64,000 bases of DNA from Mycobacterium sp. OAS707 (GTDB taxonomy: Bacteria; Actinomycetota; Actinomycetes; Mycobacteriales; Mycobacteriaceae): NCBI RefSeq assembly GCF_014873705.1, contig NZ_JADBDS010000001.1:1-64000 (forward strand), given 5' to 3'. Below, piece after piece: positions 10,517 to 46,520 of the stretch. The position numbers and the translations under genes are program-made. How positions within the stretch are numbered: position 1 is the stretch's first letter; every line of letters begins with the position of its first letter. Below the pieces are notes generated by a model that was not told where the DNA came from, made no database searches, and saw nothing but the letters and a program-made list of their open reading frames with translations.

Positions 10517-13223
<2,707 letters not shown>

Positions 13224-30936: not shown

Positions 30937-33900
30937 ATGACCGCCACGTTGACGCGCCCGGCCTCCCGGTACTCCTGGGTGCCCGCGGCAGCCGGCTGGA
31001 CGGTCGGCATCATCGCCACGCTGTCACTGATCGCGAGTGTGTCCCCAGGCATCCGCTGGGTCATCAAGCAGCCCCGCGAGTTCGTCAACGACTACATCTT
31101 CAACTTCCCCGACACCAGCTTCGCGTGGGCCTTCGTGTTGGCGCTTCTCGCGGCGGCGTTGGCGGCGCGCAAGCGGATCGCCTGGTGGATCCTGCTCGGC
31201 TACATGGTCGCGTCGATCGTATGGAACATCGGCGGGCTGGTCACCAGCCCGAAATCGGTGGCCGACGACATCGGCGAAGTGATCGGGCTGGTCTTCCACG
31301 TCGCGTCGATCCTGGCTCTGCTGCTGGCCCGAAAACAGTTCTGGGCGAGGGTTCGCCGTGCGGCGTTGCTCAAGGCGGCGGCAACGCTCGTCGTGAGCAT
31401 GGCCATCGGCACACTGGTCGGCTGGGCGCTACTGGAGTTGTTCCCGGGCAGCCTCGCCCGTGAAGACCGTTTCTTGTACGCGCTCAACCGGGTGAGCGCC
31501 TTCGCAGGCGCCTCCTCGGAGTCGTTCTCCGGCCATCCGCATGTCTTCGTCAACGCGCTGCTCGGCCTGTTCGGCGCCCTGGCCCTGATGGTCACCGCGA
31601 TCGTGCTGTTCCAGTCGCAGCGCGCCGACAACGCGCTCACCGGCGAGGACGAATCGGCCATCCGCGGGCTGCTCGAACTGTTCGGCAAGAACGACTCGCT
31701 CGGCTATTTCGCCACCCGCCGCGACAAGGCCGTCGTCTTCGCGCCCAACGGCCGGGCCGCCATCACATATCGCGTCGAGGTCGGCGTCTGCCTGGCCAGC
31801 GGCGATCCCGTCGGCGACCCGAAGGCATGGCAGCAGGCCATCCACGCGTGGCTGGGGTTGTGCCAGACCTACGGCTGGGCGCCCGGCGTGATGGGCGCCA
31901 GCTCGACGGGCGCTGAGGCATTCCGCCAGGCCGGGCTCAACGCATTGCAACTCGGCGACGAGGCCATCCTGTATCCGGACAACTTCCGGCTCTCCGGGCC
32001 CGATATGCGTGCGGTGCGCCAAGCCGTGACGCGGGCGCGACGGGCAGGCGCCACGGTGCGAATCCGGCGCCACCGCGATCTTTCCAGCGAAGAAATGGCC
32101 AAGGTCGTCGAGCGTGCCGATGCATGGCGGGACACCGAAACCGAGCGCGGCTTCTCGATGGCACTCGGCAGGCTCGGCGACCCCGCGGACGGCGACTGCC
32201 TGCTGGTGGAGGCCATCCAAGACGATCAAGTGGTTGCGATGCTGTCGCTGGTGCCGTGGGGCAACAACGGCGCGTCACTCGACCTGATGCGCCGCTCACC
32301 GCAATCCCCCAACGGCACCATCGAACTGATGGTCAGCGAGCTGTGCATGCAGTCCGAAGGCATTGGGGTGACCCGGATCTCGCTGAACTTCGCGATGTTC
32401 CGAACGGCGTTCGAGCACGGCGCGCAGCTGGGCGCCGGGCCGGTCGCAAGGTTGTGGCGTGGCCTGCTGGTGTTCTTCTCCCGGTGGTGGCAGCTCGAGA
32501 CGTTGTACCGGTCGAACATGAAATACCAGCCGCAGTGGGTGCCGCGGTACGCCTGCTACGAGGACGCCCGTCTTGTCCCCCGCGTCGGCGTCGCCTCGGT
32601 GATCGCCGAGGGCTTCCTGGTGTTGCCGTTCTCGCGCCGCGCCGAGCAACCGCACACCGGCCATCACATCTCGGCTCCCGAAAACCTCGTCGCCACAGGG
32701 GTTTTGCGCCATGACGGCAGCGCGCCCGACCTCGGCGAGCTGGAAGCCGACCTTCCAGAGGCCGACGAAGGCCCGCGACTGCCCGAGCAGGTGCGCGTCC
32801 GGATGGCCAAGCTGAAGTCGCTGCAGGACAACGGCGTCGACGCATACCCCGTCGGCGAGGCGCCCAGCCACACCATCGCGCAGGCCATCGACTCCGAGGG
32901 CGCAGGCACCGTGACCGTGGCGGGGCGGGTGCTTCGCATCCGCGATTACGGCGGCGTGCTGTTCGCGCAGTTACGCGACTGGTCAGGTGAAGTCCAACTG
33001 CTGCTTGACAATTCGATCCTGGACCACGGCACCATCGCGGATTTCACCGCGGCCATCGACCTCGGTGACCTGATTCAGGTGTCCGGGACCATGGGCTACA
33101 GCAAGAAGGGCACCCGCTCGCTGCTCGCCCTCAGTTGGCGGTTGATCGGCAAGTGCCTGCGACCGCTGCCCGATAAGTGGAAGGGGCTGACAGACCAGGA
33201 GTCACGGGTACGGGCCCGTTATGTCGACCTCGCGATCAACACCGAGGCGCGCGAATTGATCCGCGCGCGCAGCGGGGTGCTGCACGCGATCCGCGAAACC
33301 CTGGTCGACAACGGGTTTTTGGAAGTCGAGACGCCGATACTGCAACAGATCCACGGGGGCGCCAACGCCAGGCCGTTCCTGACCCACATCAACGCCTACG
33401 ACCTCGACCTGTATCTGCGCATCGCTCCCGAGCTGTATCTCAAGCGGCTGTGCGTCGGAGGTGTCGAACGGGTCTTCGAGCTCGGTCGCGCGTTCCGCAA
33501 CGAGGGTGTGGACTTCAGCCACAACCCCGAGTTCACGCTGCTCGAGGCCTATCAAGCGCACGCCGACTACAACGTCTGGATCGGCGGCTGCCGCGAGCTG
33601 ATCCAAAACGCCGCGCAAGCCGCCAACGGCGCACAGGTCTTCTTGCGCCCCCGCGAGGACGGCACGCTGGAACCCGTCGACATCTCCGGGGAATGGACCG
33701 TGAAGACCGTGCACGGCGCGGTGTCAGAGGCACTCGGCGAGCAGATCGGACCTGACACGGATCTGGTTGTGCTGCGCAAGCTTTGCGATGCGGCGGGCAT
33801 CCCCTATCTGACGCACTGGGACGCAGGCGCGGTGGTGCTCGAGCTCTACGAGCGGCTGGTCGAGGAACGGACCACGGAACCGACGTTCTACAAGGACTTC

Positions 33901-34233
33901 CCGACGTCGGTCTCGCCGCTGACCCGACCGCATCGCAGCATCCCCGGCGTGGCCGAGCGCTGGGACCTGGTGGCATGGGGCGTCGAGTTGGGCACCGCAT
34001 ACAGCGAGCTGACGGATCCCGTCGAGCAGCGCCGCCGGCTGCAGGAGCAGTCGTTGCTCGCCTCAGGCGGTGATCCCGAGGCGATGGAGCTCGACGAGGA
34101 TTTTCTGCAGGCGATGGAGTATGCGATGCCGCCGACGGGCGGACTCGGTATGGGCGTCGACCGGGTCGTCATGCTGATCACCGGGCGCAGCATCCGCGAA
34201 ACGCTGCCGTTCCCGCTAGCCAAACCGCGTTAG
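30937..34233 (+). CDS. lysX: Bifunctional lysyl-tRNA synthetase / lysyl-phosphatidylglycerol synthase
   Basis: A 1098-residue membrane fusion protein. Residues 20-235 contain about six to seven hydrophobic segments; 250-590 are the MprF-like DUF2156 transferase; 650-750 an OB-fold; and 770-1098 a class II LysRS core with [20 protein letters not shown] (motif 2) and [13 protein letters not shown] (motif 3). It makes lysyl-tRNA and transfers the lysine to phosphatidylglycerol, lowering surface charge and protecting from cationic peptides, as known for LysX of M. tuberculosis. ATG 30937 follows an AT-rich 50-bp gap (GAATAT at about 30920). Confidence 0.96.
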
Positions 34234-34281
34234 CAGGTCGCTCACAGGCACCGCCAAGGAAATACGTCCACGATTGTTGCC

Positions 34282-35700
34282 GTGACGTTACCCGGGCCGT
34301 TTCGCCACCACCTCTCGCTCATGCACGGCTGGCTTCCCCTCACGGTGCAAGTCATCGCGGGTCTTCTGCTGATCGCCGCGATCGGCTGGCGCAACCGCCG
34401 CTGGCGTGTGGTGTGGCTGCCGTGGGCGGCGCTGGTCGGGGTGGCACTCGCGGTTGCGTCGTACTGGTACATCGCTTCGCAGGGGCTGAGCGACGACTCC
34501 AATCCCGCTCCGAATTCGCTGTGGATCTGGATCGGGCTGACCGGTGTGGCCGTCGGCGTCCTCATCGCGGGTTGGCGCGGTGCACGCTGGTGGCGGCGCG
34601 GCGTTTCTGCAGTGGCGGTGCCGGTTTGCCTGCTGTGTGCGGCGCTCGCACTGAATCTGTGGGTCGGCTACTTCCCCACCGTGCAGACCGCCTATAGCCA
34701 GCTGACCGCGGGTCCGCTGCCCGATCAGACGGACACCGGGACCGTGGTCGCGATGCAGAAGCGGCACGCGATTCCCCCGAAGGGCACCGTGGTGCCTGTC
34801 AACATTCCCGATGCCGGGTCAGGCTTCAAGCACCGCGGTGAGCTGGTCTACCTTCCGCCCGCCTGGTACGCGACCGACCCACCGCCGCCATTGCCGACCG
34901 TGATGATGGTCGGTGGCGAGTTCAACACGCCGGCCGACTGGTTGCGCGCGGGCGGCGCGGTCAAGACGATCGACGACTTCGCGGCCGCGCACGGCGGCAA
35001 CGCACCGGTCTTCGTGTTCGTCGACTCCGGCGGCGCCTTCAACAACGACACCGAATGCGTCAACGGCACGCGCGGAAACGCCGCCGACCACTTGACCAAA
35101 GATGTTGTGCCATTTATGGTTTCGAGCTTCCACGTGTCGGCCAAGCGTGCTAACTGGGGCGTTGCCGGATGGTCGATGGGCGGCACATGCGCGGTCGATC
35201 TGGCGGTGATGCATCCGGACATGTTCAGCGCGTTCGTCGACATCGCAGGCGATCTGACACCGAACTCGGGAAACAAGGCGCAGACCATCGCGCGCTTGTT
35301 CGGTGGCAATGCGGCCGCGTGGGCGGCGTTCGATCCGACGACGGTCATCACCCGCCATGGCCCGTACACCGGGGTGGCCGGCTGGTTCGCCATCAACGGG
35401 AACCCGTCGGCGCAGCCGCATGTGGTCAATGCCGCAGCCAGCGTAGGCGACCAGACCGCGGCGGCGAATTCGTTGTGCGCGACAGGTAGCGCCAACGGCA
35501 TCAAATGTGCGGTGGTGATGCAGCCCGGCAAGCACGACTGGCCGTTCGCAGCGCATGCGTTCGCTGCAGGGTTGCCGTGGCTGGCCGGCCAGCTGGGCAC
35601 CCCGGGCACGCCCGTCCTGCCACTGCCCCCGTCATCGCAGCCAATCGCGACGCCCGCACCACTGCACGCCGGGCCGAATCTGCAGGCGGCGGCGAAGTAG
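34282..35700 (+). CDS. Membrane-anchored esterase-like protein (Rv1639c-type)
   Basis: A 472-residue protein with four N-terminal hydrophobic segments (about 18-34, 42-62, 76-94, 106-125) and an extracytoplasmic alpha/beta-hydrolase domain. The nucleophile elbow is GWSMGG; a later HDWPF gives a likely catalytic His. The fold resembles esterase D/antigen 85-type acyltransferases. A Pro-rich tail ends the protein. GTG 34282 is used; ATG 34321 is an alternative. It follows lysX by 48 bp in the same direction, as in M. tuberculosis, suggesting a shared envelope-related transcript. Confidence 0.85.
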   Translation: MTLPGPFRHHLSLMHGWLPLTVQVIAGLLLIAAIGWRNRRWRVVWLPWAALVGVALAVASYWYIASQGLSDDSNPAPNSLWIWIGLTGVAVGVLIAGWRGARWWRRGVSAVAVPVCLLCAALALNLWVGYFPTVQTAYSQLTAGPLPDQTDTGTVVAMQKRHAIPPKGTVVPVNIPDAGSGFKHRGELVYLPPAWYATDPPPPLPTVMMVGGEFNTPADWLRAGGAVKTIDDFAAAHGGNAPVFVFVDSGGAFNNDTECVNGTRGNAADHLTKDVVPFMVSSFHVSAKRANWGVAGWSMGGTCAVDLAVMHPDMFSAFVDIAGDLTPNSGNKAQTIARLFGGNAAAWAAFDPTTVITRHGPYTGVAGWFAINGNPSAQPHVVNAAASVGDQTAAANSLCATGSANGIKCAVVMQPGKHDWPFAAHAFAAGLPWLAGQLGTPGTPVLPLPPSSQPIATPAPLHAGPNLQAAAK

Positions 35701-35718
35701 ACCGGTAGCGTTGGTGGT

Positions 35719-35979
35719 ATGCCCGACGACCCCACGCCCCCGGAGCCCGTAGAACCGGCCGAGACCGGCTACACACCCGGCGGCGTGCCCACATTCGATT
35801 CGGTGCGGGAGAAGATCGAGACGCGTTACGGCACCGCCGTCGGCGCGTCCGAATTGGCCGCGGAGACTCCTGAGGGTCGCACCGTCGAGGAGCAATACGA
35901 CGCGCGCCAGCGCGCCGCCGCCGAACGGCTGGCCGAGATTCGCAAGTCGATGCACCCCGACGAGGGCGAGGGTCAGTAA
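35719..35979 (+). CDS. Small conserved hypothetical protein (Rv1638A-type)
   Basis: An 86-residue acidic soluble protein: Pro-rich first 25 residues, then a charged helical segment (EEQYDARQRAAAERLAEIRK). Function unknown. ATG 35719 lies 18 bp after the esterase gene, so it is probably co-transcribed with it. It overlaps the opposing 360-residue gene by 7 bp. In M. tuberculosis a similar small gene lies next to uvrA; here about 5.8 kb of other genes separates them. Confidence 0.75.
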   Translation: MPDDPTPPEPVEPAETGYTPGGVPTFDSVREKIETRYGTAVGASELAAETPEGRTVEEQYDARQRAAAERLAEIRKSMHPDEGEGQ

Positions 35980-37055
35980 TCCGACTCCGCGGCCAGCACT
36001 TCAGCCAGGAACGCGTCGCCGCCGGGGGCCCGCAGTCGCGCCCGTGCGAATTCCCTGATCCGCTCGCGCGTCTGCGGTGACTCCTCGACGTCGGCCCCGA
36101 CCGTCACTGCGGTCGACCGCCAATCATGGTCCCACGCAGCCGATTCCGCGACCGGGTGCGGCCCGTCGAGGATCGGGAACCTCGCGACGCCGTTGGCGTC
36201 GAGCACGCCGGCACCCCTGAAGTCACCGGACCGCAGCCGCACGTTGATGCCTGCAGCCAGCCCAGGGCCCGATAGGTCAACGCGCACAATCGCTTTCGCT
36301 GACCCGTCGGCCGCCTCGAGCTGCCAATGGATGGTGTCCTCAGCCGCATCGAAGATGCCCGGTGGCACAGCACCCCAATTGACCGAGCCGGTTCCTGTTG
36401 CGATCGAGCCTGCGCCGCGTCCGTCGCCGTCCGCCCCGGCGGCCAGCGCGTAGTCGTCGCGTCGCACCGCGACGCTGTCGGCCTCGGCGAACGCAACTCC
36501 GAGGTCGTCGGCGAGATCGGCACAGCTGCGCACGAGTTCGACGGCGCGGGGGTCACCGCCCTGCAGGTGTGCGCTCAGTGCCGCGGTGTGCGGCCGCAGC
36601 AGGGCAGCCACGTCGGAATCGAAGGTGTCGTCGGTGAAGAACTCCTCGGCCCCTGCCGTGAGCATCGCGATCTCCGCGTCGAGCAGCGCGGCGTCGAGCG
36701 CCGCGATGCCATTGCGCTGGCTGGTCGGCCACCACCGGCGCAGCCAATGACCCAACGCCAGCCGGCGAAGCGGCTCAAGGGTTTCGGGCTTCAGGTCGAC
36801 ATCGGCGAGTTCGACGGCCGCTTCGGGCGTCCCTTCGTGTAGCGCGGTGGCCAATGCGATGTGTCCCGGTTCGCCGAGCACCCGCCACAGCCAGTCCGCG
36901 TGGTCGAGATCGGTGAAGGTGATCTGCGCGGCGTGTGCGGCGTCGTCGACGGTCCACGACAGCACCGCGCCGCTGACCTCCAGCACCGCGACGAGTTGCG
37001 CTTGGGCGGGTTGTCGGCCCGTGCTCCACAAGCCGGAATCGGCCACGAGTCTCAT
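35973..37055 (-). CDS. Unknown protein B of the CHAT/TPR cassette (360 aa)
   Basis: I do not recognise a family. It is soluble and acidic with mixed alpha/beta character: an N-terminal beta-rich part (LVAVLEVSGAVLSWTVDD), a helical middle (about 85-175), and a second beta-rich part (about 215-320) reminiscent of a C2- or immunoglobulin-like fold. It has no signal peptide or membrane segment. Its ATG overlaps the stop of the 441-residue gene by 4 bp (ATGA), so the two are coupled and probably form a complex. Codon use matches the neighbours. Confidence 0.7.
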   Translation of the reverse strand: MRLVADSGLWSTGRQPAQAQLVAVLEVSGAVLSWTVDDAAHAAQITFTDLDHADWLWRVLGEPGHIALATALHEGTPEAAVELADVDLKPETLEPLRRLALGHWLRRWWPTSQRNGIAALDAALLDAEIAMLTAGAEEFFTDDTFDSDVAALLRPHTAALSAHLQGGDPRAVELVRSCADLADDLGVAFAEADSVAVRRDDYALAAGADGDGRGAGSIATGTGSVNWGAVPPGIFDAAEDTIHWQLEAADGSAKAIVRVDLSGPGLAAGINVRLRSGDFRGAGVLDANGVARFPILDGPHPVAESAAWDHDWRSTAVTVGADVEESPQTRERIREFARARLRAPGGDAFLAEVLAAESDY

Positions 37056-38377
37056 CCCGCCACCTGCAGCTCGAGCATCGACTTGATCCGTTGCCGGTGA
37101 TCGAGGCTGACCGACCTCGCGACGCCCTCCAGCAGCGCCCGTACATCGTCGACGTCGTCACAGGGCTCCTGCCAGACGTCGCGACCGTGCAACCGGGCCC
37201 ACAATCTGCTCAGATACGGGCGGGCGAAGGAGGCCAGGTCGTCGATCACCTGCTGTTGTCGGGGATGCATCGGTGCGCCGCCGTCGGCGAGATAGCGACG
37301 GGCGTGCAGCACATATGCTTCCTTGCGCAGCCGGGCCTGAATCTGTGCGGCCAGTTCGTAGCGGGTATCGACGGATTCGGCCAGCGGTGCCAGGCACGCG
37401 CCGACTTCGATCCCCGCGATCAGCGTGGCCTGCTTGTCCTCGGCCATCAGGCCCCACGGCGCACACGACCGGTCGACCTCTTCGGCGCACAGCGTCGGGA
37501 TGTCGGGCAATTCGTCGCGGCCCATCGCGCGCCGCAGCGTCGCCCGCACCCGGTCGACGACGCTTCGGTTCAGCGGACGCTCGGTTTCTGAACCGCTGAC
37601 GATGTCCGGTGGCGCTTGCGGCTCAACGGAACTCAAGCCAAGGGCGGTGATCGACCACGGCAGCTCCCCCGCACGACCACGCGCTTTCGCGCCGAGGTTG
37701 TACGGTGTGGCGTCGGCGATCAGTGCCGACCACACCCGCTGCCGCGCGATCGCGGCATTGTGGCCGTCGGCGGGCCCGAGCACTGTGGTGAGGCCCGCGA
37801 GGAACGGGGTGGTGATCTCGGGGCCCGCCTGCACGTCGCTCCAACTGCGCCGCAGTTGATCGGCCAGCGCGGCCACCACATCAGGATCCGTCACGTACTG
37901 GTTGAGCACCTCGATCGCGGTCCGGTCGCGGTCCCCGTGAACCTCCCGCAACACCAACTCGGCGGACCCGTCATCTTGTTGCGCTGGTGCACCTTTCGTC
38001 ACAGCAAGCTCGAAACAGACCGGGAAGTACAACTCCTGCGCGTTGCCGGTGGTAATGCGCAGGCGGCGGCGCTCACGCTTGAGCAGCTCGAACCACGCTG
38101 CGGCAGAGCGCAATTGGGGGGCGTGGCTGACGATCAGCTCGTGCATCGCCACCGCGGTGTCCGCGTCGACGAAGGGCGCAGAGTACTGGGTGTTGGAGCG
38201 CAGCCTCAGCACCAGCGGGTCGAGAATCCGTTTGACGGTGCGACGCAGCGGGCCGCCGTCGTCGCCGCTGAGCACCTCGACACCGGGACCGATGGCCCGC
38301 CATGCGCGATCGATCACCGCGCGGCGAGGTTGGCTGACGGCAACAGCCGACGTAACCGTCTCGAATCCCGCGCTCAT
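37052..38377 (-). CDS. Unknown protein A of the CHAT/TPR cassette (441 aa)
   Basis: No family recognised. It is predicted mainly helical and soluble, with Arg-rich stretches (LLKRERRRLRITTG, LRRAMGRDELPDIP) and three Cys residues, two in CAEEVDRSC near residue 335. The ATG at 38377 is chosen because a -10 element TATGCT (38384-38389) lies exactly 6 nt upstream, predicting a leaderless mRNA; the frame remains open to 39166 only as a shadow. It is divergent from the membrane-anchored protein (54-bp gap) and overlaps the 360-residue gene by 4 bp. Confidence 0.7.
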   Translation of the reverse strand: MSAGFETVTSAVAVSQPRRAVIDRAWRAIGPGVEVLSGDDGGPLRRTVKRILDPLVLRLRSNTQYSAPFVDADTAVAMHELIVSHAPQLRSAAAWFELLKRERRRLRITTGNAQELYFPVCFELAVTKGAPAQQDDGSAELVLREVHGDRDRTAIEVLNQYVTDPDVVAALADQLRRSWSDVQAGPEITTPFLAGLTTVLGPADGHNAAIARQRVWSALIADATPYNLGAKARGRAGELPWSITALGLSSVEPQAPPDIVSGSETERPLNRSVVDRVRATLRRAMGRDELPDIPTLCAEEVDRSCAPWGLMAEDKQATLIAGIEVGACLAPLAESVDTRYELAAQIQARLRKEAYVLHARRYLADGGAPMHPRQQQVIDDLASFARPYLSRLWARLHGRDVWQEPCDDVDDVRALLEGVARSVSLDHRQRIKSMLELQVAG

Positions 38378-38383
38378 CGGTCC

Positions 38384-38389
38384 AGCATA
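38384..38389 (-). promoter_or_regulatory. -10 element of the unknown-protein pair
   Basis: TATGCT on the minus strand, 6 nt before the ATG at 38377, the spacing expected for a leaderless transcript. The -35 is weak (TTGTGC with a 19-nt spacer). The same -10 to start-codon spacing is seen at the TPR gene (41747). Confidence 0.5.
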
Positions 38390-38431
38390 AAGTTGGGTTC
38401 GGTAGCCGGCACAACGGCTGACCCTATTGGC

Positions 38432-38926
38432 ATGTCCACAGCATTGTTGCTCGGATTCGCCGCCGACCAGCTCGTCAATGTCGTCTTCTTCGGCTTCCTC
38501 CTCGCAGGCAGCACTGCCACACTGCTCGCTCCCGCCCGGGTCTCCGCCGGGCCTGTCCCCGAGTCCGACGAGGGTGACGAGCGTCTTCTCACCGCCGCGG
38601 ACATGCTGGTGGTCCGCGCGGAGTTCGAGGAGATGCTGGTGCGAAAAGGACTGCTCACCGGTGATCAACTCGACCTGATTCGCAACGGCACCAAGTCGCA
38701 CGCGGTCGTGACCGGCATGCGTCCCACCGGCGCCTCTCGGGAGGACCATCGGGAAGTCGTGCTCGACGTGATGGTGAGAAAGCCGGGTGGCGGCCAGTTT
38801 CCGGCTCACGAGACGGCGCTGATCCCCGCCTCGTCGTTGGCGAAAGTCTCCCCCGGCAGCATCATCGACACTTACTACCTGGCGGGAGACGAATCGGCAG
38901 TGGCCGTGTGCGTGCCGCCCAGCTGA
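38432..38926 (+). CDS. Small membrane-anchored protein of the CHAT/TPR cassette (164 aa)
   Basis: Residues 3-30 form one strong hydrophobic segment (LLLGFAADQLVNVVFFGFLL and following), then a soluble domain with an acidic linker (ESDEGDE) and a beta-rich C-terminal half (EVVLDVMVRKPGGGQF to VAVCVPPS). No family recognised. A short Pro/Val-rich linker joins anchor and domain. It is divergent from the 441-residue gene and its stop lies 5 bp from the CHAT gene stop. The part before ATG 38432 is shadow. It could tether the system to the membrane. Confidence 0.65.
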   Translation: MSTALLLGFAADQLVNVVFFGFLLAGSTATLLAPARVSAGPVPESDEGDERLLTAADMLVVRAEFEEMLVRKGLLTGDQLDLIRNGTKSHAVVTGMRPTGASREDHREVVLDVMVRKPGGGQFPAHETALIPASSLAKVSPGSIIDTYYLAGDESAVAVCVPPS

Positions 38927-38931
38927 GGTGT

Positions 38932-40125
38932 TCATCGGGCACCGTCGACCGCGAAGGTGGCCAACGCGGCCCAATACAGCGGGCTCGCAGTGTTGTCGCC
39001 GTCGCGCCAGCGCCGCATCTGCTCGCGCTGCCAGGTGTTCACGGCGCGTCCCGCATCGGCTTCTTGGTGGGCGCGGTCTACGGCGATGATCGCCTCTGCC
39101 ATCGGATCGTGATCGGCCGCGGCGGGCGCGAACTGGCGATAGCCGGCGGCGGTCGGTAGCGACCACAGCGTGGCGGTGACGAGTTGCGCGCCGCCGAGGA
39201 TCATCGCGGCCACCAAGCCCGTGGCTTCGTCGAACTGGTAGTCACCACCGGACGCACACGCGATCATCGCGATTCGCGGCGGCATCGGCAGTTTGGCCGT
39301 CATCAGATCCGATGCTGTGAGGGCTCTTTCGTCCGCGAGGTGGAGCGCGGCCTGGTCGGCGTGGCCGACGTCGCCGTCGGCGGCGGTCGCGTGCCCGACG
39401 TACAGCAGCCTGCTCGGTCGCCGGTCGAGTTGACGGCCCAGCCACGGCCGGTCGGCGTCGGTGCGGCGGAACAGCTCGACGGCGCCTGCGACGTCGGGCA
39501 GTACCTCACGTCGCTGCATCAGCTCCGTAAAATGCTGTGCCAGTGCGGTTTCGGCTGACGGCCTACCGAGAACGGAGCCCAGCGCCGAGTCGGGCCGCTG
39601 ACCGGGCACGCGCGGGTCGAGTATCAGCAGAGGCGGACCATCGCGGCGATCGTCCCAATATGCCGCTGTCCGGCCGGAATTCACGATGTTCGACGGCGCG
39701 GCCATCAGCACATCGGCGAGTTCCATCAGCCGGAAACCGTCGTCGCCGGGCATCGCGAGCAGCCCCCAGGGCACCCGCGCCAGCCGGGAACTGGGCGACA
39801 CGAACAGCGCGGCCCGCGGTGACGTGACGCTGTCGATCAGCAGCTGCCAGGCCTCAGGCGACAACAAGCTTTCACCCAACGTCGTTGCGATCGTCAACTC
39901 GGAAGCCGGTGCCGCGAAAGGACCTGAGACGACGGCTCGCTGGACCGCATCTCGCCGCGTCTCGGATGCCAAGGGATCCGGCAGCGCGGTGGACAGTTGG
40001 TCGCGCGCCGCGACGACATCGGCCTCGCGCACGACCCAGGTGATAGTTCGCTCGGGCTCTCCGATCGCTCGGAGGCTGGCATAGGTGGCTACGCCGACGT
40101 CTGCGTAGCGAAGAACGAGGGTCAC
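38932..40125 (-). CDS. CHAT-domain protease
   Basis: Caspase-like (clan CD) cysteine protease of the CHAT family, 397 residues from GTG 40125. The core covers about 105-395: VPWGLLAMP (118-126), catalytic His245 in LLYVGHA, catalytic Cys290 in MIACASGG, TATLWSLP near 320, and the C-terminal SPLYWAALATFAVDG typical of CHAT. Residues 1-100 are a separate N-terminal domain. GTG 40125 overlaps the TPR gene stop (GTGA); GTG 40131 and 40140 are alternatives. CHAT proteases usually act with TPR partners and cleave a specific effector, as in TPR-CHAT (Craspase) systems. The substrate here is unknown. Confidence 0.9.
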   Translation of the reverse strand: MTLVLRYADVGVATYASLRAIGEPERTITWVVREADVVAARDQLSTALPDPLASETRRDAVQRAVVSGPFAAPASELTIATTLGESLLSPEAWQLLIDSVTSPRAALFVSPSSRLARVPWGLLAMPGDDGFRLMELADVLMAAPSNIVNSGRTAAYWDDRRDGPPLLILDPRVPGQRPDSALGSVLGRPSAETALAQHFTELMQRREVLPDVAGAVELFRRTDADRPWLGRQLDRRPSRLLYVGHATAADGDVGHADQAALHLADERALTASDLMTAKLPMPPRIAMIACASGGDYQFDEATGLVAAMILGGAQLVTATLWSLPTAAGYRQFAPAAADHDPMAEAIIAVDRAHQEADAGRAVNTWQREQMRRWRDGDNTASPLYWAALATFAVDGAR

Positions 40126-41747
40126 GGCCACGTTGACCACGGGGCCTCGTCGGCGGTCACCGCACATCCGTACCGCTCGAACGCCAGTGTGCGATAGCGA
40201 CTCATGATCGGCCCCTTCGTCGGGTCCATCTGCAGCGGCGGCAGCGGGCCGAGCCGGGTCAGCGCCGCGCCTCCCGGTATCGAAGGCCCGGCGGCGACGA
40301 GGGCGTACTCGTCGATGGTTTCGAAGGGCACCGCCGCCGTCGCGGTCTCCGTCCAATCGGCGGACTGAGCGTCCGGCTCGGTGCTGAAACTGCCACGCGC
40401 GCTGTGGTATTCGACGAGTTCGCTGACGAGTTCGGTATTGCCCCACTCCCACGCGACGGCGAACGCGCCTGCCAGGATTCGGGCGGACACGTGGTTTGCC
40501 CACCGCATGCGCGCGTCGGCGTCGGTCATCGCGTGCCGCACCGAGTCGACGGCCAGTGCCGCGGGGACCTTGAGCTCGGCGGCCTGCTCGAACTTGGCCG
40601 CCGCGTTGTCGGGGTCGGCCAGCGCCTCCGCACGCAGGATGCTGCCGAGGTGGTCATCGAGCCGGGCGTACTGCAGCCAGCTGTGCCTGGGCCAGGCGTC
40701 GAGCAGCGCACGGGCCTCGGTGGTGCGTTCCTTGGCCGCGGCGAAGTCGCCCCGGAAGATGTCGACCCAGCTGCGCTGCAACAGAATCCGGTGAATGTGC
40801 AAGGGCTTTTCGACTTCGCGCCAATGCCGCTCGGCATGCCCGAACCGCTCGTCGGCATCGTCGAGCATTTCGATCGACAGGCTGAGCAGGCCGAAGTACA
40901 GCCAGCATCGCGACACGTCGTGAGCACGGTAGCCCTCGGCGATGGCGGGGTACGCCTCATGCACGAGGCGTTGGCACTCGACTCGATCACCGGCCGCCCA
41001 GCGGGCGGTGGAACGTTCGAATTGTGTTCTGGCCGTTGCCAACTTCCATCCGCGTTTCTGGGCACGAGCTCCGGCGCGGTGCAGCCAAGGCTCGGCCTCC
41101 GACAGCCGTCCCGTCTCGACGCAGAACCGGCCGTATGCGGTGCCGGCCTGGACCAGCAGAAAGTCGTCGAATTCTCCGTCCCCGCTGGAGGTTTCGATCG
41201 TCTTGAGCACGTCCTCCCACAACGGAACGGAGCGCACGTGCAGGTCGTCGTCACAAAGTGCGGTAGCGCAGAGAATGCGCGCATAGGTGATCAGAAATGC
41301 GTGTTCGGCCGCGAGGTCGGGAAACGCATTCGAGGTGTCGCCGGTAAGCACCAGCAACCCGGCCTCGGCCGCCTCATGGTCACCGTGCGCGGCGGCGGCA
41401 AGGCCGGTTCGCAGAAACTGCGCCCGCCGGGAATACCGGCAGATCATGTGGTCGACGTCGACGTCGGACATCGTGACCTGGGTGGCCGCTTCGGGGTTGC
41501 TGCCTGCCCGAATCGACTGGTAGATGTCGAGGCAGTCGGTGATACGGCGGAGGCACTCCTCGACGCCGTTGTAGGCCGTGCGAACCAGGTAGATCTCGCC
41601 GAGTTGGGCATAGACCTCGAGCAGCAGATCATCGCGGTCGGCCTTTTCGATCGGCTCGTCGAGTGACAGCAGCAACTGCTTCGCCGCTTCTTCGTCCGCG
41701 GCGAAGATCAGCCGCCGTGCGCGCTCCAAGTCGCTGACAATCGTCAC
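40122..41747 (-). CDS. TPR-like helical protein partner of the CHAT protease (541 aa)
   Basis: Almost entirely helical, with repeated TPR-like pairs, for example EVYAQLGEIYLVRTAYNG (about 44-60), AQFLRTGLAAAAHGDHEAAE (about 107-126), GRFCVETGRLSEAEPWLHRA and RSWVDIFRGDFAAAKERTTE. The last ~80 residues (after about 460) look like a separate non-repeat tail. No membrane segment. GTG 41747 is the predicted start of a leaderless mRNA (TACAAT 6 nt upstream). It overlaps the CHAT gene by 4 bp, so the two products are made in fixed ratio. The likely role is a sensor or scaffold controlling the protease. Confidence 0.8.
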   Translation of the reverse strand: MTIVSDLERARRLIFAADEEAAKQLLLSLDEPIEKADRDDLLLEVYAQLGEIYLVRTAYNGVEECLRRITDCLDIYQSIRAGSNPEAATQVTMSDVDVDHMICRYSRRAQFLRTGLAAAAHGDHEAAEAGLLVLTGDTSNAFPDLAAEHAFLITYARILCATALCDDDLHVRSVPLWEDVLKTIETSSGDGEFDDFLLVQAGTAYGRFCVETGRLSEAEPWLHRAGARAQKRGWKLATARTQFERSTARWAAGDRVECQRLVHEAYPAIAEGYRAHDVSRCWLYFGLLSLSIEMLDDADERFGHAERHWREVEKPLHIHRILLQRSWVDIFRGDFAAAKERTTEARALLDAWPRHSWLQYARLDDHLGSILRAEALADPDNAAAKFEQAAELKVPAALAVDSVRHAMTDADARMRWANHVSARILAGAFAVAWEWGNTELVSELVEYHSARGSFSTEPDAQSADWTETATAAVPFETIDEYALVAAGPSIPGGAALTRLGPLPPLQMDPTKGPIMSRYRTLAFERYGCAVTADEAPWSTWP

Positions 41748-41753
41748 AGCTGG

Positions 41754-41799
41754 ATTGTAGGAAGCGGCGGACGCTCCAGCGGCGCCCGCCGCTTCCTAC
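41754..41799 (-). promoter_or_regulatory. TPR-CHAT promoter embedded in a 14-bp-stem hairpin
   Basis: Perfect inverted repeat GTAGGAAGCGGCGG (41757-41770) and CCGCCGCTTCCTAC (41786-41799) with a 15-nt loop. It lies 9 bp after the lipoprotein stop and can terminate that transcript. On the minus strand the -10 TACAAT (41754-41759) overlaps the distal arm by three bases, and its 6-nt spacing puts the start point on the GTG at 41747. No good -35 is seen. Confidence 0.6.
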
Positions 41800-41808
41800 T
41801 CCGGCCGA

Positions 41809-42276
41809 TCAGCTGCAGGTCACCTTGACGGTGAACGGCTTGGTGATCATGCCTGCCATCGGGTTCTTGATGTCGGCGCCCGAAGCTTCACCGGTGATGG
41901 TGTAGGTGCTGCCGTCGACCTTCGCCTCGGCCTTGCCGACCTGCGCACCGCCCATGCTGCTGACGGCGAGGGCATTGCCGTCGACAGACATGGCCACAGA
42001 CTCGACGGTCGGCGGGTTCGCGTCGGTCATCACGACCGCAAGACCGGCCTGACCGTTGATCGCACCGCTGGCGACGTTGATCTTGCCGCCCTGCTTGACG
42101 CAGGTCACCGACTTCATATCCAGACCGGAGAGATCTTTGCCGTCGACCTTGACCTCGGCGCTACCACCTGTGCTGGCCGTTCCGCCGCCCGGGAGCGAAG
42201 CCTTGTTGTCCGAACAACCCACCATGAAAGCTGCGGCGGCGGCCAGTCCGGCCACACCCACGACAACCTTGTTCAT
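41809..42276 (-). CDS. LpqH-type (19-kDa antigen family) lipoprotein
   Basis: A 155-residue secreted lipoprotein. The signal peptide ends in the lipobox MVGC (Cys21), so the mature protein should be lipid-anchored. The mature domain shows the family layout: a Gly/Ser/Thr linker, LDMKSVTCVKQGG, and the closing FTVKVTCS with a second Cys, giving a probable disulfide. The ATG at 42276 has an AGGGAAAG ribosome-binding site. It resembles LpqH/LppE proteins, which are surface antigens of unclear function. It is separated from the TPR gene by a strong hairpin. Confidence 0.88.
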   Translation of the reverse strand: MNKVVVGVAGLAAAAAFMVGCSDNKASLPGGGTASTGGSAEVKVDGKDLSGLDMKSVTCVKQGGKINVASGAINGQAGLAVVMTDANPPTVESVAMSVDGNALAVSSMGGAQVGKAEAKVDGSTYTITGEASGADIKNPMAGMITKPFTVKVTCS

Positions 42277-42394
42277 CGATCTTTCCCTTCGTTGCGCGTC
42301 GCCCTGATGGCGTCCGTCGTGGCCTCAGTCAAGATCGGGGCAACGGCTACCGATCCCAACCTTTGTCGGTCTGCGCAGGTACGGTTCCTCGGCG

Positions 42395-43558
42395 ATGAGG
42401 TCATTCACTGTTGAGGAGCGACGGGCCAGGCTCGCGCGGCGGCATTTCCTTGCCGATCCGACGGATTCACTCGATCGCGTGGTGGCAGACCTGATCGGGC
42501 TGCACGCCACCGACCCGGCCACGCCTTATCTATCGCTGTGGGCGCGGATGGCCGGTTTCGCCGTCGCTGACCTCGACGCCCAGTTGTACGAGCGCCGCAC
42601 CCTGCTCAAACATCTGGCGATGCGCCGCACGCTGTGGACGGTGCAGGCAGAGGATCTGCCGTTGATTCAGTCGGCCGCCAGCGACCGGGTGGCAGACAGC
42701 GAGCGCAGGCGGTTGGTCGCCGATGCCCAGAAAGCGGGGGTGGCCGCCGACGGCGAACGATGGCTGGACACAGCCGGTGCTGCGGTGTTGCGGCATCTCG
42801 CCGAACATGGCGCGGCGAGCGCCAAGGAACTACGCGAGGCGCTGCCCGAGCTCGCCGGCCGCTACGACTACGCGCCCGGCAAACGGTGGGGTGGCGAGAC
42901 ACCTTTGGCGCCAAGGGTTTTGACGGTGCTATCGGTGCGCGGCGATATCGTCAGGGGTCCCAACGACGGCGCGTGGACCATCTCGCGTCCGCGATGGACG
43001 CCGATGGGTGCTTGGCTGCCGGCTGCACCGGAGTCCGCCGAACCGGAGGTGGCCCGCGCCGAATTGGTGCGCAGGTGGCTGCGGGCATTCGGCCCGGCGA
43101 CTGAGACCGACATCAAATGGTGGTTCGGCAACACGCTGACATGGACGCGGCATGCGCTGCGCGACATCGATGCGGTCCAGGTGGACCTTGGTGGCACACC
43201 GGGTTTCGCGTTGCCCGACGACTTGGACGTCGAACCGGAGGTCGAGCCGTGGTGCGCGCTGCTGCCGGGCCTCGATGTCACGACGATGGGGTGGTACGGC
43301 CGGGACTGGTATCTGGGCGAGCATCGCGACCAGGTGTTCGATACCAACGGCAACGCGGGGCCGACCGCGTGGTGGTGCGGCCGGATCGTCGGCGGATGGT
43401 GGCAAGACGCGGATGGTCGCGTAGAAGTGCAGCTGCTCGAGAACGTGGGCCGCGACGCGAAGCGAGCGTTGAAAAGGCGCGCGGACGAGCTGACGGCATG
43501 GCTGGACGGTGTGCGGGTCAGCCCGCGGTTCCCGTCGCCGCTGTCGAAACTGCGGTGA
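42395..43558 (+). CDS. AlkZ-like winged-helix protein (HTH_42 family)
   Basis: A 387-residue member of the family that includes AlkZ/YcaQ DNA glycosylases. The order is as in the family: N-terminal ARRHFLADP, the GLHATD motif (about 35-40) followed by YLSLWARM, RRTLWTV, a winged-helix middle, and the C-terminal WWCGRIVGGWW. AlkZ-type glycosylases have QxQ or QxD at the GLHATD position; here it is HATD, so catalysis may differ or be absent. GTG/ATG alternatives were not needed: ATG 42395 fits. It is divergent from the lipoprotein gene (118-bp gap, nothing else clear) and converges on uvrA. Confidence 0.85.
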   Translation: MRSFTVEERRARLARRHFLADPTDSLDRVVADLIGLHATDPATPYLSLWARMAGFAVADLDAQLYERRTLLKHLAMRRTLWTVQAEDLPLIQSAASDRVADSERRRLVADAQKAGVAADGERWLDTAGAAVLRHLAEHGAASAKELREALPELAGRYDYAPGKRWGGETPLAPRVLTVLSVRGDIVRGPNDGAWTISRPRWTPMGAWLPAAPESAEPEVARAELVRRWLRAFGPATETDIKWWFGNTLTWTRHALRDIDAVQVDLGGTPGFALPDDLDVEPEVEPWCALLPGLDVTTMGWYGRDWYLGEHRDQVFDTNGNAGPTAWWCGRIVGGWWQDADGRVEVQLLENVGRDAKRALKRRADELTAWLDGVRVSPRFPSPLSKLR

Positions 43559-43612
43559 GATCGCGAAATCGAAATCGATCGCGATCTGTAGGCAGTTTCG
43601 GCGAATGAAACT
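43559..43612. terminator. Convergent hairpins between the AlkZ-like gene and uvrA
   Basis: Two hairpins fill the gap: GATCGCGA/TCGCGATC (43559-43566 and 43579-43586) starting one base after the stop codon, and AGTTTC/GAAACT (43594-43612), which reaches into the uvrA stop. Neither has a T-tract, as is common for mycobacterial terminators. They may serve both directions. Confidence 0.45.
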
Positions 43613-46520
43613 AGGCGCTGGCCTTGCTCGCCTTGCGGGCGTTGCGCTTTGCCGGCTTGGGCCGCGGCACGTCGAGAATCTCGGCCAGGAAGTGCCCGGT
43701 GTAGCTGTCGGGGTTCACGGCGACGTCCTCGGGGGTACCCGACGCGACCACTGACCCGCCGCCCGCTCCCCCCTCGGGACCCATGTCGACGATCCAGTCC
43801 GACGTCTTGATCACGTCGAGGTTGTGCTCGATGACGATGACCGTATTGCCTTTGTCCACAAGGCCGTTGATCACACCGAGCAGCTTGCGGATGTCCTCGA
43901 AGTGCAGACCCGTCGTCGGCTCGTCGAGTATGTACACCGTGCGACCCGTCGACCGCTTCTGCAGCTCGGACGCCAGCTTCACGCGCTGCGCCTCACCGCC
44001 GGACAGCGTCGGCGCCGGCTGGCCCAGTCGCACATAGCCGAGCCCGACGTCGACCAGCGTCTGCAGATAGCGATGAATCGAGCTGATCGGCGCGAAGAAC
44101 TCCGCCGCCTCCTCGATCGACATGTCCAGCACCTCGGCGATGGTCTTGCCCTTGTAATGCACTTCGAGCGTTTCGCGGTTGTACCGGGCGCCGTGGCACA
44201 CCTCGCACGGCACGTACACGTCCGGCAGGAAGTTCATCTCGATCTTGATGGTGCCGTCACCCGAACACGCCTCACACCGGCCGCCCTTGACGTTGAACGA
44301 GAACCGGCCAGGCTGATAGCCCCGCACCTTCGCTTCTGTGGTGGCGGCGAACAGCGTGCGGATCTTGTCGAACACCCCGGTGTAGGTGGCGGGATTCGAC
44401 CGCGGTGTGCGGCCGATCGGCGACTGGTCGACCCGCACCAGCTTGTCCACCTTGTCCAGCCCGGTGACCCGGGTGTGCCGACCGGGCACCTGCCGCGCGC
44501 CGTTGAGCTTGTTGGCCAACACCGACGCCAGGATGTCGTTGACCAGCGTCGACTTGCCCGAACCCGAAACACCCGTCACCGACGTCAGCACCCCGAGCGG
44601 GAACGACACATCGATCTCCCGCAGGTTGTGCTCGCGTGCACCCACCACCGTGAGCTGACGCTTGTGGTCGGCCGGGCGCCGAATTGCCGGCACGTCGATC
44701 TGCTCCTTGCCCGAAAGATACGCTCCGGTAAGCGAATTCGGGTTGGTGAGCAACTCGTCGTACGGGCCGCTGTGCACGATGCGGCCGCCGTGCTCGCCAG
44801 CATAGGGACCGATGTCGACCACCCAGTCGGCGTGGGCGATGGTGTCGAGGTCGTGCTCCACCACGATCAGCGTGTTGCCCAAATCCCTCAGCCGGATCAG
44901 GGTTTCGATCAGCCGGCGGTTGTCGCGCTGATGCAGGCCGATGGACGGCTCGTCGAGCACATAGAGCACGCCCACCAGACCCGACCCGATCTGCGTGGCC
45001 AGCCGAATACGTTGCGCCTCACCGCCGGACAGCGTGGCCGCCGCCCGCGAGAGCGAAAGGTACTCCAGGCCGACGTCGAGCAGGAAGCCGAGCCGCGACT
45101 GAATCTCCTTGAGTACCTGTCCCGCGATCGCCTGCTCGCGGGTGCCGAGCGTCAACCCGTTGAGGAACTCCGCGCACTCGGCAATGGAGAGCTCGGCGAC
45201 CTCGGCGATCGACTTGTGCTTGCTGTCCGCGGCGAGGGTCACCGCGAGAATTTCCGGCTTCAGCCTGGTGCCTTCGCACTCCGGGCACGGCACGTCGCGC
45301 ATGAAGCCCTCGTAGCGCTCCTTCATCTGCTCGGAGTCCGTCTGCTCCATCTTGCGTTGAAGGAAAGCCATCACGCCTTCGAAATCGGCGTAGTACGAAC
45401 GGGTTCGGCCGTAACGGTTGCGGTACCGCACGTGCACCTGCTCGTCGCAGCCCTCGAGAATCGCCCTGCGCGCCTTGGCGGGCAGCTTCTTCCACGGGGT
45501 GTCGACGTCGAAGCCGAGCTGATCGCCCAGCCCTGACAACATCCGGGTGAAGTACTCGGCCGTCTGGCCCATCGACCACGGCGCGATCGCGCCCTCGGCC
45601 AGCGTCAGCTCCGGATCGGGCACCACGAGTTCGGGGTCGACCTCTTTCTTGATGCCGAGACCGGTGCACTCAGGGCAGGCGCCGTACGGGGAGTTGAACG
45701 AGAACGACCGCGGCTCCAGGTCGTCGACGGCCAGCGGGTGACCGTTCGGGCAGGCCAGCTTCTCGGAGAAGCGTTGCTCGCGGTGCGGGTGGTCGTCCTC
45801 ACGGTCGACGAACTCCAGCACGACGATGCCGTCGGCGAGATTCAGCGCCGTCTCCACGGAATCGGTAAGCCGCTGCTTGGAGCTTGCCTTGACGGTCAGC
45901 CGGTCGACGACCACCTCGATGTCGTGCTTCTCCTGCTTCTTCAGCTTCGGCGGATCGGTAAGCGAATGCACCACCCCGTCGACCCGCACCCGGCTGTAGC
46001 CCTGCGAGTTGAGCTTGTCGAACAGGTCGACGAACTCGCCCTTGCGGGTGCGCACCACCGGCGCAAGCACCTGGAACCGCAGGCCCTCATCCATCGCGAG
46101 TACCTGGTCGACGATCTGCTGCGGGGTCTGGCGCGCGATCCGCTCACCGCACACCGGGCAATGCGGGGTGCCTGCCCTGGCATACAGGAGGCGCAGGTAG
46201 TCGTACACCTCGGTGATGGTGCCCACGGTCGACCGCGGGTTCCGGTTGGTCGACTTCTGGTCGATGGACACCGCAGGCGACAAGCCCTCGATGAAGTCGA
46301 CGTCGGGCTTGTCCATCTGGCCGAGGAACTGCCGGGCGTAGGCCGACAACGACTCGACATAGCGGCGCTGGCCCTCGGCGAAGATCGTGTCGAACGCCAG
46401 CGACGACTTGCCCGAGCCGGACAGACCGGTGAAAACGATCAGCGCATCGCGAGGTAGTTCGAGGTCGATGCTTCGCAGGTTGTGCTCCCGCGCACCCTTG
46501 ATGATCAGGCGCTCAGCCAA
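43611..46520 (-). CDS. uvrA: UvrABC excinuclease subunit A
   Basis: Damage-recognition ATPase of nucleotide excision repair, 969 residues. It has two ABC cassettes: Walker [10 protein letters not shown] near residue 33 and GVSGSGKST in the second half, two signature LSGGEAQR motifs, and [10 protein letters not shown] and [10 protein letters not shown]. The zinc-binding [14 protein letters not shown]...CEVC module lies in cassette II, with another CPVC/CPEC set in the first half. TTG 46520 is preceded by GGAGG at 7 nt. No LexA box was found in the 83-bp gap to the divergent MBL gene. Confidence 0.98.

Follow-up and report, generated by a model that had tools for sequence, protein, structure and literature searches.

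We analysed the first 64,000 nucleotides of contig NZ_JADBDS010000001.1 of Mycobacterium sp. OAS707 (hereafter the window, meaning that whole stretch of DNA) and found a block of six adjacent genes organised around a predicted caspase-like protease of the CHAT family. The genes and features of the block are as follows.

41809-42276, reverse strand: lipoprotein of the Myco_19_kDa family (155 amino acids), first gene of the block (PF05481, E value 3.4e-31, 108.4 bits against a cut-off of 23)
40122-41747, reverse strand: TPR protein (541 amino acids), predicted CHAT partner (TPR_12 in syntenic relatives)
38932-40125, reverse strand: CHAT (caspase-like) protease (397 amino acids; PF12770, 3.5e-17, 63.2 bits against a cut-off of 24)
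39391-39393, reverse strand: codon for the predicted catalytic His245 of CHAT, invariant in 27 aligned sequences
39256-39258, reverse strand: codon for the predicted catalytic Cys290 of CHAT, invariant in the same 27
38432-38926, forward strand: small slot protein (164 amino acids) with one hydrophobic stretch, detected by a slot profile and DUF3592-like by way of a distant homologue
37052-38377, reverse strand: g4, uncharacterised, predicted all-helical (441 amino acids), with near-invariant positions and a weak structure model
35973-37055, reverse strand: g5, uncharacterised (360 amino acids), with a helical half, a linker and a beta-sandwich half in its structure model; candidate substrate
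36420-36476, reverse strand: g5 linker, residues 194-212, including the motif DYALAAG (201-207), with conserved residues and a predicted local distance difference test score (pLDDT) below 50

The original prediction, made from the sequence of the window alone, had described five of these genes, and their positions, both 4-bp overlaps (TPR with CHAT, g4 with g5) and the 5 bp between the stop codons of the CHAT and slot genes are all correct; it had overlooked the sixth, the lipoprotein gene just 5' of TPR (42276..41809). Its assignment of a CHAT-type protease with His245 and Cys290 is borne out by the PF12770 match, also found in relatives L199, L200 and L204, and by both residues being invariant in the 27 aligned orthologues and near-invariant (at least 95% of rows, as throughout) with seven distant loci added. 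The TPR-like gene it had recognised was likewise recovered: although the window protein scores below the Pfam cut-off, the repeats are clear in the syntenic relatives L199 (TPR_12, 3.5e-18) and L204 (6e-9). Of 27 near-invariant positions in the TPR protein, 25 lie at residue 361 or beyond. The slot protein, g4 and g5 also gave nothing above the Pfam cut-off, in agreement with the earlier description of g4 and g5 as two unrecognised proteins. The five window proteins TPR, CHAT, slot, g4 and g5 had no NCBIfam, PADLOC or PHROGs match at the limits used, and the CHAT profile found no PDB sequence match at E values up to 1.

We then asked how these genes are distributed across 100 genomes, one per species, comprising 60 of the window's genus (its own genome included) and 40 others of the same order. 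The search recovered TPR and CHAT in 44 genomes each and g4 and g5 in 45 each; all four, hereafter the core, occur in the same 44 genomes, 43 of the genus plus one other (G088), and none of them occurs in 55, namely 16 of the 60 in the genus and 39 of the 40 outside it. The expectation of the original prediction that its genes should co-occur in other genomes thus proved right for the core four, which are together in 44 of the 45 genomes having any. Conservation of the core genes was far above chance level.

Reading the 44 loci around the block, we found the lipoprotein gene directly 5' of TPR in 42, the exceptions being L068, which is cut by a contig edge just past TPR, and L082, from genome G005. 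Of 42 loci compared, 27 have overlapping TPR and CHAT genes, and 41 show the 4-bp overlap of g4 with g5. In L063, from G088 and thus another family, TPR and CHAT are fused as a single 1001-residue open reading frame (ORF), a fusion seen only there. The earlier pairing of TPR with CHAT fits both observations, and the fusion and the overlaps suggest that the two form one protease. A small opposite-strand gene stands between CHAT and g4 in 39 of 43 loci, as judged by the slot profile search (E value cut-off 1e-3), which supersedes a search with the window slot protein that matched in 23 of 100 genomes, an undercount.

A g4 profile run against named genomes matched 219 stretches; the best 80 of these, all titled Mycobacterium, Mycolicibacterium or Mycobacteriaceae, contained g4 in 80, g5 in 80, CHAT in 79, TPR in 78 and the lipoprotein in 73. 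Seven of the best 80 are incomplete, six of them ending at a contig edge no more than 232 bp from the first gene seen and the seventh, L181, being the G005 contig. We conclude that the assignment of lipoprotein, TPR, CHAT, slot, g4 and g5 to one gene unit is well supported by sequence comparison, and because the genes adjoin and are present or absent together, with one exception, they probably serve one joint protease-triggered stress or anti-phage response.

Individual copies of the block show further variation. Frames are broken in TPR and g4 of L095 (G031) and in g4 and g5 of L100 (G045), both single-contig assemblies, through either decay or sequencing error; broken, doubled or cut sequences were excluded from alignments and trees. 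A PIN-domain gene (PF01850, 4.7e-13) at 6265-6699 of L074 (G029) lies in a widened gap between CHAT and g4, and is possibly an inserted toxin-antitoxin piece.

The core also persists outside the genus. A g4 profile over 345 genomes of the class matched in 27, nine of them outside the genus, and all nine regions were read. The six complete regions (L199, L200, L201, L202, L204 and L205) each carry g4, g5, TPR and CHAT contiguously on one strand, in a gene order that differs from that of Mycobacterium; L203 ends after g5, L206 is a g4 fragment only, and the profiles gave no match in L207. In a plasmid collection, six records held g4, all six with a CHAT relative about 3 kb away, and the two that were read contained the four core genes (Streptomyces) and all six genes (Nocardia farcinica, L268). 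In all 8 distant regions that were read to their end, the core four therefore remain together although rearranged. The L268 record (NZ_LN868939.1), titled Nocardia farcinica plasmid 2, is 2.66 Mb long and may be a piece of a chromosome rather than a plasmid. Three Rhodococcus plasmids (H13, H14 and H15) encode annotated CHAT proteins 30-33% identical to that of the window, in records without a g4 match, and represent a related but different CHAT group.

By number of near-invariant positions, g4 is the most conserved member of the block, with 80 such positions over 48 rows. Arginine and lysine account for 18 of them and aspartate and glutamate for 6, whereas the two classes are balanced in the whole protein (53 and 58; Fisher p 0.003, a test applied once the list had been seen), a hint that g4 may bind something negatively charged. 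The g4 structure model is poor (pLDDT 62). That of g5 is good (pLDDT 85.5), with its helical half followed by the linker, a beta-sandwich half at about 215-325 and C-terminal helices; a fold search with this model returned no standout match. Within the linker, all 27 aligned rows share A203, L204, A206 and G207, and ALAAG is present in 7 of 7 distant g5 proteins. A motif common to TPR and g5, noticed by eye in the window TPR protein, was rejected, as the distant TPR proteins compared do not have it.

The two remaining members point to an effect at the envelope. A lipobox-like motif is present in 40 of 43 block lipoprotein sequences. A separate lipoprotein search of 21 genomes, 5 block-positive and 16 block-negative, recovered the block lipoprotein at 143-210 bits in four of the five positives and as two pieces of 86 and 68 bits in the fifth (G009). 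Nothing exceeded 83.5 bits in the 16 negatives, of which 3 had no match at all and 13 carry paralogues. The Myco_19_kDa family thus extends beyond the block, and the linked orthologue does not. In the G009 locus (L077) the lipoprotein is split over two frames, and the G009 UvrA is split as well, which may point to assembly errors.

The slot protein had been described as membrane-anchored. This holds for the window protein, whose hydrophobic stretch averages 1.95 on the Kyte-Doolittle scale over 19 residues, and for 28 of 39 slot frames (stop-to-stop frames, and hence approximate), but is not universal, as 11 of the 39 lack a clear stretch. The slot homologue in L199 matches DUF3592 (PF12158, 6.3e-6, 27.2 bits against 25.3), and the window slot protein has no Pfam match. 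This L199 homologue lies beside g4 and is followed at 11143-11691 by a DUF4231 gene (PF14015, 8e-6, 26.7 bits against 24.7), a family that we take to be related to predicted two-helix membrane effectors.

In the window, the genes at 30937-46520 are a LysX-type gene, an esterase gene, an 86-residue ORF without a Pfam match, the block, an AlkZ-like gene and uvrA. The AlkZ-like DNA glycosylase gene (42395-43558; PF06224, 7e-65) adjoins uvrA and is an ordinary repair gene. In five block-negative genomes (G013, G016, G022, G027 and G055), it directly adjoins a small gene, presumably Rv1638A, where the window carries the block. Across the LysX-uvrA regions L064-L106, species differ in the side of this Rv1638A-type gene on which the block is found, some sharing the arrangement of the window and others having the opposite one, so the block was inserted or rearranged in this region more than once.

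The original prediction, noting that the genes flanking the block are neighbours in M. tuberculosis, had offered insertion here or loss there as explanations. We compared the distribution of the block with a UvrA tree (59 rows; G005, G008 and G025 left out, G003 28% filled) and with a core-protein tree, both built quickly and without bootstrap. On the UvrA tree presence and absence require 12 changes, 8 of them forced by well-supported branches, and the block-negative genomes show no clustering (95 of 500 shuffles gave a count as low). Block location is mostly clade-consistent: 6 changes account for the location groups on the core-four protein tree (43 rows), where the minimum possible is 4, and two of these groups each form one fully supported branch. 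Repeated loss from an early carrier is the simplest reading, although the change count cannot separate gain from loss.

One lineage departs from this pattern. UvrA of G050 branches outside the bulk of the genus, but the nearest relatives of five of its six block genes are held by G020, G021 and G049 (g5 being marginally closer to the cut G005 protein), and a basal placement of the G050 block was rejected (approximately unbiased test, p 0.0037). The entire block thus seems to have reached the G050 lineage by horizontal transfer, and this conflict with its UvrA place suggests that the block is probably also passed on as one piece. The sequence identities of the block genes are only loosely coupled to that of UvrA, with Spearman coefficients of 0.20-0.36 for the core four, 0.66 for the lipoprotein and 0.59 for the slot protein, leaving room for further transfers. 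Both earlier explanations therefore survive in part, the UvrA tree favouring repeated loss within the genus and at least one whole-block transfer accompanying it. The idea that the block is cargo of a mobile defence island was rejected in view of its mostly clade-consistent places and housekeeping-type neighbours.

We propose, with a probability of roughly 0.45, that the block encodes a single trigger-activated proteolysis pathway in which CHAT cuts a dedicated partner and so sets off an envelope-level response to phage attack or envelope damage. The TPR protein would hold CHAT through its conserved C-terminal part, and the trigger would be read either by g4, with its many invariant arginines, or by the TPR repeats. 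Once freed by the trigger, CHAT would cleave a single dedicated partner, for which g5, cut in the flexible linker joining its halves, is the likeliest candidate, and the released part, together with the slot protein and the lipoprotein, would produce an envelope-level response, probably growth arrest or death. We consider g5 the best substrate candidate because its two folded halves and flexible joint resemble Csx30 of Craspase, as described in the available part of the source (PMC10028731).

Several observations weigh against this proposal. G005, an 84%-complete draft in 720 pieces, is the sole genome with g4 and g5 only; they lie on a 4.3-kb contig whose 2.2 kb upstream of g4 holds a kinase-like ORF rather than CHAT, and no TPR or CHAT match was found anywhere in that genome. 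Because it is a fragmented draft, this exception did not change our estimate for the proposal. The slot gene is missing in 4 of 43 loci, where CHAT and g4 are 17-73 bp apart, and of the 8 distant four-gene loci read only two (L205 and L268) yielded the lipoprotein. The conserved g5 linker motif may be a docking site instead, since Craspase cut sites are not conserved among orthologues in the portion of the study consulted (PMC11106740). Against defence in particular, no relatives were found in phage or viral contigs, and the block is flanked in several locations by housekeeping-type genes (some named by eye), so defence remains hypothetical; scattered absence, the one whole-block transfer and the DUF4231 neighbour in L199 argue weakly in its favour. 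The kinase-like ORF of G005 (L082/L181, 152-2047), itself named by eye, has an extracytoplasmic-looking C-terminal part.

The same genes could instead carry out regulated proteolysis without any immune role or suicide, sensing the state of the envelope and adjusting its physiology through cleavage of g5 or g4; the lipoprotein and slot protein would then form an envelope arm. We hold this as a tentative alternative: it would account for the envelope-type accessory genes, the housekeeping-type neighbours in mostly clade-consistent locations and the lack of any phage or viral relative found, but 12 changes on the UvrA tree and a whole-block gain by one lineage would be unusual for a housekeeping pathway, and the envelope genes are mostly absent from the distant four-gene loci. 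It is distinctly unlikely that CHAT cuts the slot protein so as to release the soluble domain from the membrane, with g4 and g5 merely regulating. The slot gene does lie beside CHAT in 39 of 43 loci, and a variable region separates the hydrophobic stretch of its product from the folded domain; however, besides the four loci without it and the 11 of 39 frames without a clear stretch, among the 8 distant four-gene loci only L199 (beside g4) and L268 gave a match to the slot protein. Still less probable is that lipoprotein-TPR-CHAT and g4-g5 are two independent modules that merely adjoin. The position of the slot gene between them in the window and the g4-g5 pair of G005 would fit such a division, but the near-perfect co-occurrence of the core (44 of 45 genomes), its cohesion in all eight rearranged distant regions and the joint move into G050 speak for a single module.

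The block offers a concrete predicted protease, candidate substrates and a link to the envelope, so that trigger and target are directly testable. Natural comparison pairs exist, as the core is present in 43 of 60 genus genomes and wholly missing from 16; the window's genome (with the block) and G013 (without it) are paired on the UvrA tree. A more specific version, which we regard as possible though somewhat doubtful, is a new caspase-type pathway spanning the cytoplasm and the mycobacterial envelope, in which a split TPR-CHAT protease would have g4 and g5, two undescribed protein families, for its sensor and substrate, and a dedicated LpqH-type lipoprotein and a small membrane protein would carry the response, leading to a regulated cell-death or anti-phage programme. 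Should it be such a programme, mycobacteria would possess a caspase-type pathway of their own; should it be an envelope-stress pathway, one branch of LpqH lipoproteins would gain a function by association.

Among known systems, Craspase, the type III-E CRISPR (clustered regularly interspaced short palindromic repeats) assembly of Cas7-11/gRAMP with the TPR-CHAT protease Csx29 and its substrate Csx30, likewise pairs a TPR part with a CHAT protease. The His/Cys spacing is alike, H615/C658 in Csx29 according to the available part of the source and H245/C290 here, and the flexible linker of the adjacent candidate substrate g5 recalls Csx30, whose cleavage that part places at residues 427-429, close to a linker spanning 377-406 (PMC10028731). 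In contrast to Craspase, TPR and CHAT are separate genes except in L063, g4 and g5 match no known family, and a lipoprotein and a small slot protein are added. No Cas-like gene such as Cas7-11/gRAMP lies among the genes at 30937-46520 (CRISPR arrays and the rest of the genome were not searched). The block thus appears to resemble a TPR-CHAT system but to fall outside Craspase.

A predicted caspase-type protease within a multi-gene set is also a feature of CATRA systems, the name of which implies a TPR link. CATRA ternary systems are caspase-dependent predicted conflict systems in the accessible part of their description (PMC8195603). Membership was rejected, as neither the window core proteins nor the relatives scanned with Pfam matched CATRA-N (PF20269); the model is present in the library, and 14 control genomes likewise gave no match. 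In EACC1 and EACC2, the same part of that paper describes a constant domain fused to the caspase and followed by a variable C-terminal part, with a TPR gene in some EACC2 loci (PMC8195603). The caspase-type protease, there predicted to be self-activated, and the occasional TPR gene are shared with our block, but the variable C-terminal part, as far as it is described there, is not seen in it; Pfam scans of the window and relatives gave no EACC domain match, the presence of EACC models in the library being unchecked.

None of the five proteins scanned (TPR, CHAT, slot, g4 and g5) matched a PADLOC 2.0 model at E values up to 0.1, and the module is not described in the literature searched. Its first gene belongs with the LpqH-type Myco_19_kDa lipoproteins but forms a linked orthologue group distinct from the paralogues in 13 of 16 block-negative genomes. 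Judged by its predicted proteins, the block is a known kind of catalytic core joined to two partner families without a Pfam match.

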